Positions 13,492-17,692 of a DNA stretch of 43,664 bases are shown here, piece after piece; position 1 is the first letter of the stretch; each line of letters begins with the position of its first letter. The DNA comes from Prevotella sp. (GTDB lineage: Bacteria; Bacteroidota; Bacteroidia; Bacteroidales; Bacteroidaceae). Position numbers and translations under genes: made by a program. A model generated the notes under the pieces. That model did no database searches, had not been told where the DNA came from, and saw nothing but the letters and a program-made list of their open reading frames with translations. The DNA lies in NCBI GenBank assembly GCA_017548275.1, contig JAFZAH010000015.1, positions 1 to 43,664 on the forward strand, given 5' to 3'.

Positions 13492-13500
13492 GTTGCTTTG

Positions 13501-13690
13501 GAGTTTAGGAGTTTAGGAGTTTAGGAGTTTAGGAGTGTAGGAGTTCAGGAGTATAGACAATAGTGGGGCTATTTGTTTAGGAGTGTAGAAGTTTAGACAA
13601 TGGTACGGCAATTTGCTTAGGAGTTTAGGAGTGCAGGAGTTTAGACAATAGTACGGCTATTTGCTTAGGAGTGTAGGAGTCTAGATAATA
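13501..13690. repeat. Octamer array with higher-order 24-base units
   Basis: GAGTTTAG-type octamers occur as seven copies (13501-13556), two (13581-13596), three (13621-13644) and two (13669-13684). Between them sit three near-identical 24-base units (13557-13580, 13597-13620, 13645-13668) beginning ACAATAGTACGGCTATTTG and ending TTAG. Since 24 is three octamers, the whole block keeps a register of 8. Confidence 0.9.
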
Positions 13691-13710
13691 GTATAGCATT
13701 GACGTATGTA

Positions 13711-13848
13711 GGCAGACTCCCCCCTGACCCTCCTCTAACTTAGATGGGGAGTTGTTGCTTGGGAACGGCTAATATATATGTTCTTTTGTTCTTATGTCTA
13801 AAAACGTTCTTATGTCTTTGTGTCTGAAAGAGTTCTTTTGTCAAAAGG
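13711..13848. repeat. Dispersed repeat, copy A (left edge of the accessory cassette)
   Basis: The segment GCAGACTCCCCCCTGACCC, then a hairpin arm matching GGGGAGTTGTTGCTTGGGAA, then GGCTAATATATATGTTCTTT and TTCTTATGTCTAAAAACG closely matches 17572-17692. The matching parts keep the same order and spacing, with a few substitutions. Confidence 0.85.
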
Positions 13849-13851
13849 GGG

Positions 13852-13881
13852 ATTCGTACAATAAACGCGGGGGTTCATACA
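13852..13881 (+). promoter_or_regulatory. Tandem operator-like repeats ahead of the first cassette promoter
   Basis: ATTCGTACA (13852-13860) and GTTCATACA (13873-13881) are direct repeats of 9 bases separated by 12, thus 21 bp apart. The second ends 15 bp before the -33 TTTG. The same geometry occurs at 14775-14804. Two 9-base direct repeats with a 12-base spacer is the known layout of LytTR-family regulator sites; assignment to that family is inference. Confidence 0.65.
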
Positions 13882-13896
13882 AAGTGCCTCTTTTTA

Positions 13897-13929
13897 TTTG
13901 GTGAAGGTCTTTTCCTGATTGTATATTTG
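13897..13929 (+). promoter_or_regulatory. Bacteroidetes-type promoter, first cassette gene
   Basis: TTTG at 13897-13900 and TATATTTG at 13922-13929, 21 bp apart, 24 bp before the start codon at 13954. Confidence 0.75.
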
Positions 13930-13953
13930 CGTTGAAATCATTCAACTACAAAT

Positions 13954-14796
13954 ATGCAAACAAACATTTTTCAATTGATGGCGGTGGTTTGTGCCGTCAG
14001 TTCGCTCCCGGCTCTGATAACGAGTGTCAGGAGAGTTGTCCGTGAGAAAAACATGCTCGGCACCATTCTGGCAATATGTTGCGGCTTGCTCATAGCCACG
14101 TACATCAGCGCCTTCTTCCATGTGGGGCAGTTCACGTCGCTTCTCCGACTGGTTCCAGAGACGATGGACATCTCTTCACTGATTTCAAAAGCATGTTTGG
14201 CACTCACTCTGTGTTGCGTGGTCGGCAACATGCTGGTGTGGTTCTTCGTCCGTAAGGTGGCGACCGATAACCTTTGGCGTTGGATACTCATTATGCTGGG
14301 CGTCTTCTTGTTGTTGCTCGTAGTATTGGCCGTCGGCCTTTCGGTCGTCACGGGTCTGCCGTTCGACACCTGTTTCTTCTGCTCCTGTTGCGGTTTCATG
14401 GGGATGGCCGGCATGGCATGGGGCTTTAGTTACAAGGAAATCTGCGTCATCATCAACATCTATCTGGAATCCGGTCTTTGCCTGCTGTCGGCCTTATGGC
14501 TGACGTGGGTGTGTGTGAAGCGCTATTTGAGTCATAAGACAGTGGCAAACGGACTGTTGATGGCTGTGGGATGCCTGTACGGAGCAGTCTGCTGCGTGGC
14601 CTTCGTCTGCATCTGCATACATTATGCGATGCCGATGGAACAAGCCTTCGACCTCTGTTATCGTGAACTGAACGCCTTGGCTGCAAAATGGGACATATCA
14701 TACAACAGCGTCAACTATCTCCTGTTCATCCTGCCGTTTATCATCCTCACGGTCGGCAACCTGTTTTTGGCCAAACTCATACATAAAAAAGGGTGA
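13954..14796 (+). CDS. Multi-pass membrane protein of unknown function
   Basis: A 280-residue protein with seven or eight predicted hydrophobic helices (about residues 5-25, 35-55, 78-100, 110-135, 140-155, 165-190, 200-225, 255-275) and no recognised domain. It is unusually rich in cysteine, with clusters FDTCFFCSCCGF and CCVAFVCICIHY. The stretch WGFSYKEICVIINIYLESGL at about residue 150 resembles LSYEPVTIFVCIYLWPVIC in the next gene's product, suggesting they are related. It has its own promoter with tandem operator-like repeats upstream. It opens an accessory cassette bounded by direct repeats. Function is unknown; a membrane or envelope-stress role is only a guess. Confidence 0.75.
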   Translation: MQTNIFQLMAVVCAVSSLPALITSVRRVVREKNMLGTILAICCGLLIATYISAFFHVGQFTSLLRLVPETMDISSLISKACLALTLCCVVGNMLVWFFVRKVATDNLWRWILIMLGVFLLLLVVLAVGLSVVTGLPFDTCFFCSCCGFMGMAGMAWGFSYKEICVIINIYLESGLCLLSALWLTWVCVKRYLSHKTVANGLLMAVGCLYGAVCCVAFVCICIHYAMPMEQAFDLCYRELNALAAKWDISYNSVNYLLFILPFIILTVGNLFLAKLIHKKG

Positions 14797-14804
14797 TTCA
14801 TACA
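14775..14804 (+). promoter_or_regulatory. Tandem operator-like repeats ahead of the second cassette promoter
   Basis: ACTCATACA (14775-14783) and ATTCATACA (14796-14804) are direct repeats 21 bp apart, and the second ends 15 bp before the -33 TTTG at 14820. Spacing and position equal those at 13852-13881. The first repeat lies in the last codons of the upstream gene. Confidence 0.65.
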
Positions 14805-14819
14805 TCCCCGGCAAAATGA

Positions 14820-14851
14820 TTTGCATCCGCTTTTCCCAGACGCTATCTTTG
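14820..14851 (+). promoter_or_regulatory. Bacteroidetes-type promoter, second cassette gene
   Basis: TTTG at 14820-14823 and TATCTTTG at 14844-14851 with 20 bp between them, 28 bp before the start at 14880. Confidence 0.75.
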
Positions 14852-14879: not shown

Positions 14880-15338
14880 ATGGAATTCATCTATCAATTT
14901 TTCAGTGGAATCCTATGCCAGATAGGCGAAAGTCTGAATTTAAGTTATGAGCCAGTAACCATTTTTGTTTGTATTTACCTTTGGCCTGTCATCTGTACTT
15001 TAACAACAATTCCTATAGTGCGCTCTGCCTTAAAACTCTACGAAGTAAAGAAAAATGCCGGACTTATCAGTTCTATTCTCTCAATGGGATATACGCTCAT
15101 GTGTCTGATGTTCTCCATATCAATGATGAATAAATACAGTTTATCCTCTCCTTTCTATTCTTATGATTCGTTGGTCGAAAATTTGTATGAGATTGCTGAT
15201 GGATTCAATACTTCATTTGAGACACTAAATGTTTATATTTATGTTATAGGGTTCATTTGCATCGTAAGTTTCAATGTTATCATTTCATACGTAATCAAAA
15301 GGTTTGCCCGAAAACCCTGCAAACAGTCAGCGGCTTGA
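14880..15338 (+). CDS. Small membrane protein related to the upstream one
   Basis: A 152-residue protein with about three transmembrane helices (roughly residues 20-45, 60-80, 115-140) and an external-looking loop rich in Ser and Tyr between the last two. No known domain is recognised. The segment LSYEPVTIFVCIYLWPVICT near residue 20 parallels FSYKEICVIINIYLESGLC in the preceding gene's product. The ATG at 14880 is chosen over a TTG nine bases earlier because it is a normal start and suits the promoter. The gene is clearly AT-richer than the core genes. It carries the same upstream operator-like repeats as its neighbour, so both are probably under one regulator. Confidence 0.7.
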   Translation: MEFIYQFFSGILCQIGESLNLSYEPVTIFVCIYLWPVICTLTTIPIVRSALKLYEVKKNAGLISSILSMGYTLMCLMFSISMMNKYSLSSPFYSYDSLVENLYEIADGFNTSFETLNVYIYVIGFICIVSFNVIISYVIKRFARKPCKQSAA

Positions 15339-15391: not shown

Positions 15392-15742
15392 ATGAAAAAC
15401 CTGTTAGCAACCCTGATCCTCGCGCTCATGAGCGTGATGGTATCAATGCCCGCCAGTGCAACAACAGGCAACAACTACAACGTGAAGGAAGGTATTCCTC
15501 AGAACATCATCGTGAAGCAGACCACACGTTACAACGACGGTCGCACGCTGATTATCTACTACAAGAAACAGGGCAATCGGTGCGAGATTTATTCGCCCTG
15601 CAACGAAGAAGATTATTCCATCGATGACATAGCGGAAATAGCATCCACCAATTTCGAGGTAGTGGAGGCCACTGAGGGAAAACTCTACAAGCGCACCACC
15701 GTGAAGCAGCTGATGCGCATCTTTATGAAGGCGCTCTCATAA
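15392..15742 (+). CDS. Small secreted protein of unknown function
   Basis: A 116-residue protein with a clear signal peptide: MKNLL start, hydrophobic core TLILALMSVMVSM and cleavage after PASA near residue 23. The mature ~93 residues are a mixed alpha/beta domain with two cysteines (NRCEIYSPCNEED) that could form a disulfide in the periplasm. The C-terminus is basic (KRTTVKQLMRIFMKALS). I recognise no family. It follows the small membrane protein by 53 bp with no promoter seen between, and a strong hairpin follows its stop, so it probably ends the transcript begun at 14851. Confidence 0.7.
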   Translation: MKNLLATLILALMSVMVSMPASATTGNNYNVKEGIPQNIIVKQTTRYNDGRTLIIYYKKQGNRCEIYSPCNEEDYSIDDIAEIASTNFEVVEATEGKLYKRTTVKQLMRIFMKALS

Positions 15743-15910: not shown

Positions 15911-16516
15911 ATGAAAAAGTTAATTGGATTATTCTTGATGTGTTCTATTCTATTTACAATTACTAATTGTGATGTAACAGGACATAAATGTACGTGTCCT
16001 CCGACTGTTTTCTTACAACCATGTAATTCATATACAGTAAAAGAGGCGGAAAAATTGGCTCCCATTATTGAAAAGGAGATATATGAAAATACCGGAGTAC
16101 CGATGTGTGTAGAGATTCTTGATAACATAAAACTTTCAAAAAGTTATTATAACAAGAATAATACCAGATATCGTGCCAGTAAAATTCTTAACTCTTTATG
16201 TCTTGACTACTTGTTGTCGCATGATGGTGTGATCGCTTTGATGCATGATGACATTTCAGATTCAAAAGGAGACATCGAAGATTGGGGAATACAGGGGCTT
16301 TCTTATATGGGAAAGAAAGTAAGTGTCGCCTCTGATTTCCGTGTAAAAGATAAATCCCAGTTCTGGAAAGTGGTCGTACATGAGTTCTTTCACTCATTTT
16401 GCAACTTAGACCATTGTGAAAAGAATGACCCAAGTTGTTTAATCAAGGAAGGTGCCGTGAAAACCTCTGAAAAGAAACTGTGTGAGAACTGCAGAAGTAA
16501 AATTAGTATAAGGTAA
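15911..16516 (+). CDS. Lipoprotein with archaemetzincin-like zinc peptidase site
   Basis: A 201-residue predicted lipoprotein: hydrophobic signal LIGLFLMCSILFTITNC with the lipidated Cys at residue 20. Residues 157-176 read HEFFHSFCNLDHCEKNDPSC and a CENC pair follows at 191-194. This matches the archaemetzincin arrangement of HExxH, a third His followed by Cys, a further Cys and a final CxxC that holds a second zinc. Two departures stand out. The third His is one residue later than in HExxHxxGxxHC, with Asp at the usual place. The usual Met after the third Cys region is Leu-Ile. RYRASKIL at 87-94 fits the family's upstream core. If active it would be a membrane-tethered metallopeptidase with an unknown target. 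Confidence 0.65.
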   Translation: MKKLIGLFLMCSILFTITNCDVTGHKCTCPPTVFLQPCNSYTVKEAEKLAPIIEKEIYENTGVPMCVEILDNIKLSKSYYNKNNTRYRASKILNSLCLDYLLSHDGVIALMHDDISDSKGDIEDWGIQGLSYMGKKVSVASDFRVKDKSQFWKVVVHEFFHSFCNLDHCEKNDPSCLIKEGAVKTSEKKLCENCRSKISIR

Positions 16517-17571: not shown

Positions 17572-17692
17572 GGCAGACTCCCCCTGACCCATCAAGAGGG
17601 GGAGTTGTCGCTTGGGAATGGCTAATACATATGTTCTTTTGTTCTTATGTCTAAAAAAGTCGTTGTGTCTAAAAAAGTCCTTATGTCAAAAG
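17572..17692. repeat. Dispersed repeat, copy C (right edge of the accessory cassette)
   Basis: GGCAGACTCCCCCTGACCC, then GGGGGAGTTGTCGCTTGGGA, GGCTAATACATATGTTCTTT and TTCTTATGTCTAAAAAAGTC parallel copy A at 13711-13848. The end contains an 18-base period (TTATGTCTAAAAAAGTCG, TTGTGTCTAAAAAAGTCC). Confidence 0.85.

Follow-up and report, generated by a model that had tools for sequence, protein, structure and literature searches.

A 43,664-nucleotide stretch of a Prevotella genome (GenBank assembly GCA_017548275.1, contig JAFZAH010000015.1; the whole stretch is called the window here) carries two promoters, each preceded by the same pair of 9-base direct repeats. We think it likely that these repeats belong to an operator-promoter module of a system resembling the LytTR regulatory systems (LRS), with a stand-alone LytTR protein, P0001, as the cognate regulator, an inhibitory membrane protein as its partner, and promoters that the system activates. 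The geometry of the repeats, their conservation, their linkage to the gene pair, the fold and tail motif of the membrane protein and the identities of the genes behind the sites were all computed directly.

Both putative operators lie on the forward strand. In the first, ATTCGTACA (13852..13860) is followed after a 12-bp spacer by GTTCATACA (13873..13881). The -33 box, TTTG, stands 15 bp past this operator (13897..13900), and the -7 box, TATATTTG (13922..13929), comes 21 bp past TTTG and 68 bp from where the first TCRTACA begins. In the second, ACTCATACA (14775..14783) and ATTCATACA (14796..14804) recur with a period of 21 bp, TTTG again lies 15 bp past the operator (14820..14823), and TATCTTTG (14844..14851) is found 20 bp past TTTG, 67 bp from the first TCRTACA start. 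The two operators reach 50.2 and 53.2 on a site matrix whose background maximum is 16.2 in 997 kb of reversed sequence. The start of operator 2 overlaps the 3' end of the gene at 13954-14796, which itself lies behind operator 1. An earlier sequence-only reading had placed the repeats, the 21-bp period, the 15-bp gap and the -7 boxes at exactly these positions. Its judgement that such a matching layout is unlikely by chance agrees with the genome as a whole, where TCRTACA-N14-TCRTACA occurs eight times versus once for the reversed pattern.

LytTR-family regulators recognise pairs of 9-base direct repeats with a 12-base spacer; response regulators of the AgrA/ComE type, for instance, carry a LytTR DNA-binding domain and use 9-bp repeat pairs with a 12-bp spacer. 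The sequence-only reading interpreted the window's repeats in this way, and further in-phase sites, one of them with a LytTR gene behind it, support the interpretation. As for the LytTR core GTTNRK, the suggested match is partial. In the second repeats of 80 sites from relatives (see below), the six positions read G 45%, T 93%, T 95%, C 92%, A/G 99% and T 98%, and since these sites were picked by TCRTACA, only the core's first two bases are an independent test. In the first repeats, T or C replaces the first T of the core.

The Prevotella genome comprises 3.22 Mb in 56 contigs (numbered with C below). TTTG lies exactly 15 bp downstream in all eight exact sites, and reversing this longer pattern leaves no match. 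Two of the eight probably represent a single place at an assembly fork, C15:1-120 having an identical copy close to the end of C17, and for this reason we count seven distinct exact sites. Allowing up to three mismatches in the core plus TTTG gave 20 matches, versus four for the reversed pattern. Two degenerate sites with an in-phase -7 box, C49:32848 (two mismatches, score 34.8) and C14:135669 (three mismatches, 33.1), complete the total of seven exact and two degenerate sites. Another match, C14:129387, scores below 14 on the matrix and nine further non-exact matches are unscored; none of these ten is counted, nor is a weak match in locus L040, whose score of 16.4 is at background level. The genome scan proposed in the sequence-only reading yielded several additional sites, phased with TTTG and the -7 box as in the window. 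The search for LytTR-domain proteins that it also proposed gave eight matches in the genome, with one gene behind a site.

What lies behind these sites is described here with operon extents read from gene order and 'lipoprotein' labels assigned by eye. The C23 site is followed by a homologue of a 201-amino-acid lipoprotein of the window, a small protein and a YiiX-type C92 peptidase. One C17 site precedes a weakly Tae4/NlpC-like protein (below the cut-off) and a papain-like peptidase, with PARG-like and DUF5715 proteins farther downstream; at the second C17 site, a gene for an RpoD-like sigma factor begins 252 bp after the site start. There are two RpoD-like sigma genes, 54% identical, at C17:57939-58799 (L039, with the exact operator) and C56:15746-16600. 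Three proteins without a Pfam match stand behind the C1 site, a lipoprotein-like gene behind the C49 site and, behind the C55 site, a small lipoprotein-like gene and then the LytTR and membrane protein genes. The degenerate C14 site precedes a 357-amino-acid acidic protein with a weak DUF6550 match and adjoins another LytTR gene; an FHA-like gene (by eye) comes next at this locus.

The gene pair behind the C55 site provides the candidate regulator. P0001 (C55:86480-86869) is a 129-amino-acid protein whose sole Pfam match is PF04397; it has no receiver domain (Pfam) and no transmembrane segments (by eye), and equally short LytTR relatives form a 42-row alignment. Its gene starts about 430 bp past the -33 box of the C55 site, after the small lipoprotein-like gene. 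P0002 (C55:86874-87761), a single-pass membrane protein of 295 amino acids, begins 4 bp after P0001. By eye, no histidine kinase is present among the listed C55 neighbours of P0001. The membrane protein has a hydrophobic stretch at residues 36-54, a helix at 27-62 and, at residues 84-295, an outer domain with the NAGPA (phosphodiester glycosidase) fold; NAGPA (PF09992) is matched in Pfam by 34 of 43 such membrane proteins. No described LRS membrane family was detected in these 43 (Pfam, E up to 0.01), and a PDB sequence search with a 12-row profile of the membrane protein found nothing. An NCBIfam 'anti-sigma' match of P0002 (E 0.0047, score 17 against a cut-off of 100), covering the helix region, was not used. 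The short cytosolic tail carries a conserved motif of the PxIIIE type, which may hold the LytTR regulator and which is present twice per tail at loci L106, L112, L113, L117, L128 and L133.

Across genomes the two genes stay together. The LytTR gene directly precedes the membrane gene in 76 of 80 loci from relatives and in 20 of 20 regions from the family, with a gap of at most 40 nucleotides in 92 of 97 cases. Among 119 other genomes of the same genus, 11 encode the membrane protein, behind a LytTR gene every time. In four of these 11, a homologue of the window protein encoded at 15392-15742 (cluster c2) lies one or two genes ahead of the LytTR gene, which ties the window's cassette to the pair.

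The 80 loci are the best of 91 encoding the membrane protein and were chosen by the protein, not by the site. Going by record titles, they come from Prevotellaceae and other Bacteroidales, many of them from rumen or gut, and include Prevotella ruminicola KHT3, Segatella copri, P. pectinovora, Leyella stercorea and Prevotellamassilia timonensis. When TCRTACA-Nx-TCRTACA was searched with x from 0 to 39, 54 exact matches in 47 loci were found at x = 14 and none elsewhere; with one mismatch allowed, x = 14 gave 80 matches in 62 of the 80 loci, and other spacings zero to four. These 80 sites comprise 77 distinct cores. Their logo reads YTCRTACA, then A-rich bases, TTTCATACA, a T-rich -33 region and TA[AC][CT]TTTGCA, where both TCRTACA words owe their conservation to site picking and the remaining positions do not. 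The -7 box starts 67, 68 or 69 bp from the first TCRTACA in 53, 14 and one of the sites, respectively, and is absent in 12. The repeats might have proved unconnected with promoters; instead, TAnnTTTG stands at 67-69 bp in 68 of 80. Scans of 12 named whole genomes gave 29 exact-core matches in 10 genomes versus eight reversed, 19 of them with an in-phase -7 box, and seven of these 19 lie outside the 80 sites. A stem of at least seven pairs encloses the second repeat in 16 of the 80 sites, L067:3602, L071:3570, L084:2697 and L135:5035 among them (200 shuffles: mean 3.06, maximum 9). A T-run often follows, so that the operator occupies the same DNA as what is probably the terminator of the preceding gene.

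Does the site follow the membrane protein beyond these loci? The family sample of 301 genomes, our own included, has membrane-protein matches in 36. A site above the reversed maximum is present in 16 of 20 family regions with the membrane gene. Some of these regions overlap with the data behind the matrix: judged by length and sequence, or by length alone, L172 and L174 seem to be contigs already included in the 80 loci as L082 and L132. Only six of the 301 genomes, again counting our own, contain the exact pattern including TTTG, because the -33 box in relatives is often TTTT or CTTG; we replaced it for the family scan by the core plus the -7 box with mismatches. At up to two mismatches this search matched 82 of 301 genomes versus about 27 in the reversed control (hand count), and we therefore limited the association to one mismatch at most. 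At that level, sites are present in 17 of 35 genomes with the membrane protein versus 15 of 265 without it, among the 300 others. In genome G287, where the membrane protein is undetected, four sites have no mismatch to the core plus -7 box (L230 and three other places), one of them behind a gene with a protein-kinase-like segment (by eye).

The sequence-only reading would have been contradicted by relatives that keep the cassette genes and lose the repeats. For c2 this is not seen: its homologues occur in four of the 119 same-genus genomes, all four with the membrane protein, and each has a site 101-133 bp upstream (one, L201, with a poor -7 match). Cluster c8, which comprises the two window membrane proteins, is divided. 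It has homologues in seven of the 119 genomes, six of them with the membrane protein; three of the seven have a site upstream (150-913 bp), two have one only downstream and two have none.

The genes linked to the 80 sites in relatives were counted by cluster, each family name resting on one scanned member and a gene behind two sites counting twice. The commonest first open reading frame (ORF) is c2 (24 of 80), followed by c4 (DUF4846, with a weak CHAP match; 15), LytTR (seven, and within four ORFs of 48 sites), a radical-SAM/B12 protein (six), the small lipoprotein-like c6 (five), M23 peptidases (c9; four) and CreD (c10; four). The position of LytTR behind sites is compatible with a positive feedback on its own operon. 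YkuD_2 L,D-transpeptidases and a GH25 protein are also linked, and the scans of the 12 genomes add a family of weakly sigma-like proteins as well as amidase-like and YiiX-like proteins (these two by eye). Many linked genes encode secreted cell-wall enzymes, membrane proteins such as those of the window forming only one class. As a whole they point to remodelling of the envelope and peptidoglycan or to lytic competition; we slightly favour remodelling, given that they include sigma factors as well as CreD and L,D-transpeptidases.

From these observations we infer that P0001 binds the sites and activates transcription, that the membrane protein inhibits P0001, and what kind of signal is sensed, as follows. 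The operator would consist of two half-sites, RYTCRTACA, with a period of 21 bp or two turns of the helix, placed 15 bp upstream of an activatable Bacteroidota-type -33/-7 promoter. In the resting state, the tail of the membrane protein would tether LytTR at the membrane or inactivate it. An envelope signal sensed by the NAGPA-fold domain would release LytTR, and the freed protein would bind the repeats as a dimer and recruit RNA polymerase. Besides its own locus, the targets would be operons dispersed over the genome that encode secreted enzymes acting on peptidoglycan, proteases, small lipoproteins and membrane proteins, among them the two of the window. Silencing, release, repeat binding and self-amplification are modelled on the LRS (PMC6193735). 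More tentatively, we envisage a transmembrane anti-activator system spread through the whole family in gut Bacteroidales, in which the NAGPA-fold protein might sense a phosphodiester-linked envelope or foreign glycan and its beta-strand-like PxIIIE tail, duplicated in some species, might free a one-domain LytTR. This could switch on a dispersed set of genes whose products would serve to remodel the wall or to attack neighbouring cells: secreted peptidoglycan hydrolases and proteases and, in this Prevotella genome, also a second RpoD-like sigma factor.

A number of observations weigh against the proposed system. In our genome a terminator-like hairpin separates the site-driven lipoprotein-like gene from P0001, so autoregulation at C55 needs read-through. 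P0002 itself matches NAGPA in Pfam at an E-value of only 0.012, and both forms of the tail motif are absent from eight of 43 tails. Eighteen of the 80 loci have no site within one mismatch in the stretch examined, four of the 20 family regions have none above background, and the 80 loci include near duplicates (L067/L068, L128/L129); more generally, kinship among genomes and loci means that p-values overstate independence. Several further points would fit a different regulator, be it a LytTR paralogue like that of C14 or a factor of another kind, that binds the sites and has the LytTR-membrane pair merely as one target. A second stand-alone LytTR (C14:135723-136115 = L042:7724-8116) adjoins the degenerate C14 site, and the 15 site-bearing genomes of 265 have no detected membrane protein. 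Among the 300 other genomes, the exact TTTG pattern occurs in five, and the membrane protein is encoded in just one of them, G190. Of the four without it, two have a completeness of 67% and 77%; a LytTR gene or fragment follows two of their sites (L046, L049) and a c8-like gene a third (L047). L205 and L225, in genomes likewise without the membrane protein, also have a site beside or close to a different LytTR gene or part of one, so the motif may be common to related LytTRs. We nevertheless consider a different regulator unlikely: site presence follows the membrane protein over 300 genomes, the pair's own locus has a site in 62 of the 80 loci and in 16 of the 20 regions, and where another LytTR adjoins a site, the alternative factor would be of the same family.

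With the repeats upstream of an intact -33/-7 promoter, LytTR might instead repress, the membrane protein then being a co-regulator and not an inhibitor. This is rather improbable, as the whole of each repeat pair precedes the -33 box, at a constant helical phase, like the repeats of the activating LytTR systems described in PMC6193735. An element acting in RNA, an intrinsic terminator that has the second repeat as its loop and regulates by read-through, would explain the excess of stems noted above, several with a T-run. However, such stems are missing from 64 of 80 relatives' sites and from all nine own-genome sites, the start box is in phase at 68 of 80, and an upstream gene's terminator sharing the DNA is more likely; we regard this explanation as very improbable. 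As for chance, or promoter modules recently copied and without regulation, the two c8 genes of the window are paralogous and one operator-gene unit may copy the other. The spacing scan, in which only x = 14 stands out, contradicts this idea, and together with the 77 distinct cores among 80 sites and the reversed-control counts leaves it hardly any credit.

In the window, the cassette with the two sites, on the forward strand, is made up as follows. The first gene behind operator 1 (13954..14796) encodes a 280-amino-acid membrane protein of cluster c8, with several hydrophobic stretches by eye and no match above cut-off in a Pfam scan. The next (14880..15338) encodes a 152-amino-acid c8 protein, by eye also a membrane protein, remotely homologous to the C-terminal half of the first (BLASTP E 5e-6, 19% over 134 columns). 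The motif that the sequence-only reading saw in both is explained by this remote homology. Then come c2 (15392..15742), a small protein of 116 amino acids with a signal-like N-terminus by eye, and a 201-amino-acid lipoprotein-like candidate metalloprotease of the archaemetzincin type (15911..16516; HEFFHSF; NF033823 E 3.9e-13, below its cut-off). The latter has no site of its own, while its C23 homologue is the first gene behind one. The cassette is flanked by imperfect direct repeats (13713-13847 and 17574-17692), which include 76 nucleotides at 89% identity (13742-13817 versus 17595-17670) plus neighbours and offer a possible recombination route for gain or loss. Just upstream, at 13500-13693, lies a tandem array of GGAGTTTA with 40/48/88-bp higher-order repeats.

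LRS constitute a little-studied class of signalling systems. As of 2018, those characterised were from Streptococcus mutans only, and the signals of HdrRM and BrsRM were not established, according to PMC6193735. The type described here, carried by Bacteroidales of the rumen and gut (Prevotella ruminicola, Segatella copri and Leyella stercorea are examples), has an outer domain that can be identified, an operator that is sharply defined and a set of linked genes. It offers a direct route to asking what an LRS senses and how the membrane protein restrains the activator, and proposes a candidate regulator for many unnamed envelope genes. Among the titles and abstract openings listed in searches of open-access literature, we found no description of a LytTR/NAGPA-fold pair or of this operator.

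The system shows the sequence-level features of an LRS: a soluble LytTR protein, an adjacent downstream membrane gene and paired repeats before a promoter. The S. mutans LRS (HdrRM, BrsRM, SMU_294/295, SMU_433/434 and SMU_1070c/1069c), as presented in PMC6193735, likewise have a soluble stand-alone LytTR gene directly upstream of the membrane gene, and 9-bp direct repeats with a 12-bp spacer just upstream of the promoter and also before other targets. The membrane partner, the operator sequence and the distance to the promoter differ. Here the partner is single-pass with an outer NAGPA-fold domain, a type absent from the LRS listed there; the same paper lists putative novel membrane types, a described family not being required for an LRS. 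The repeat is RYTCRTACA instead of the ACCNCTTAY kind of S. mutans, and lies 15 bp from the -33 box, compared with 4-11 bp in S. mutans and 10 in most others (PMC6193735). The promoter is of the Bacteroidota type, unlike in S. mutans, and many linked genes encode secreted cell-wall enzymes, whereas the S. mutans systems are linked to bacteriocins or competence (PMC6193735). Closer in phylum are the LRS-like operons of B. thetaiotaomicron and B. ovatus, which also combine a LytTR domain with direct repeats before a TATCTTTG promoter; in these, however, the LytTR protein has transmembrane segments, the membrane gene (NfeD-like, DUF2154) comes first, and the repeats are 11 bp with an 11-bp spacer rather than 9 and 12 bp (PMC6193735). 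P0001 also differs from AgrA/ComE-type regulators in having no receiver domain. The fold of residues 84-295 of the membrane protein resembles NAGPA/DUF2233 structures (6pku, 6pki, 6u11, 3ohg from B. ovatus and 5h3k from Synechocystis), with 10-14% identity to the NAGPA chains compared, the assignment being made by profile and fold. Unlike NAGPA/DUF2233 proteins, it has a one-helix tether, a cytosolic motif tail and a LytTR protein with which it is paired.
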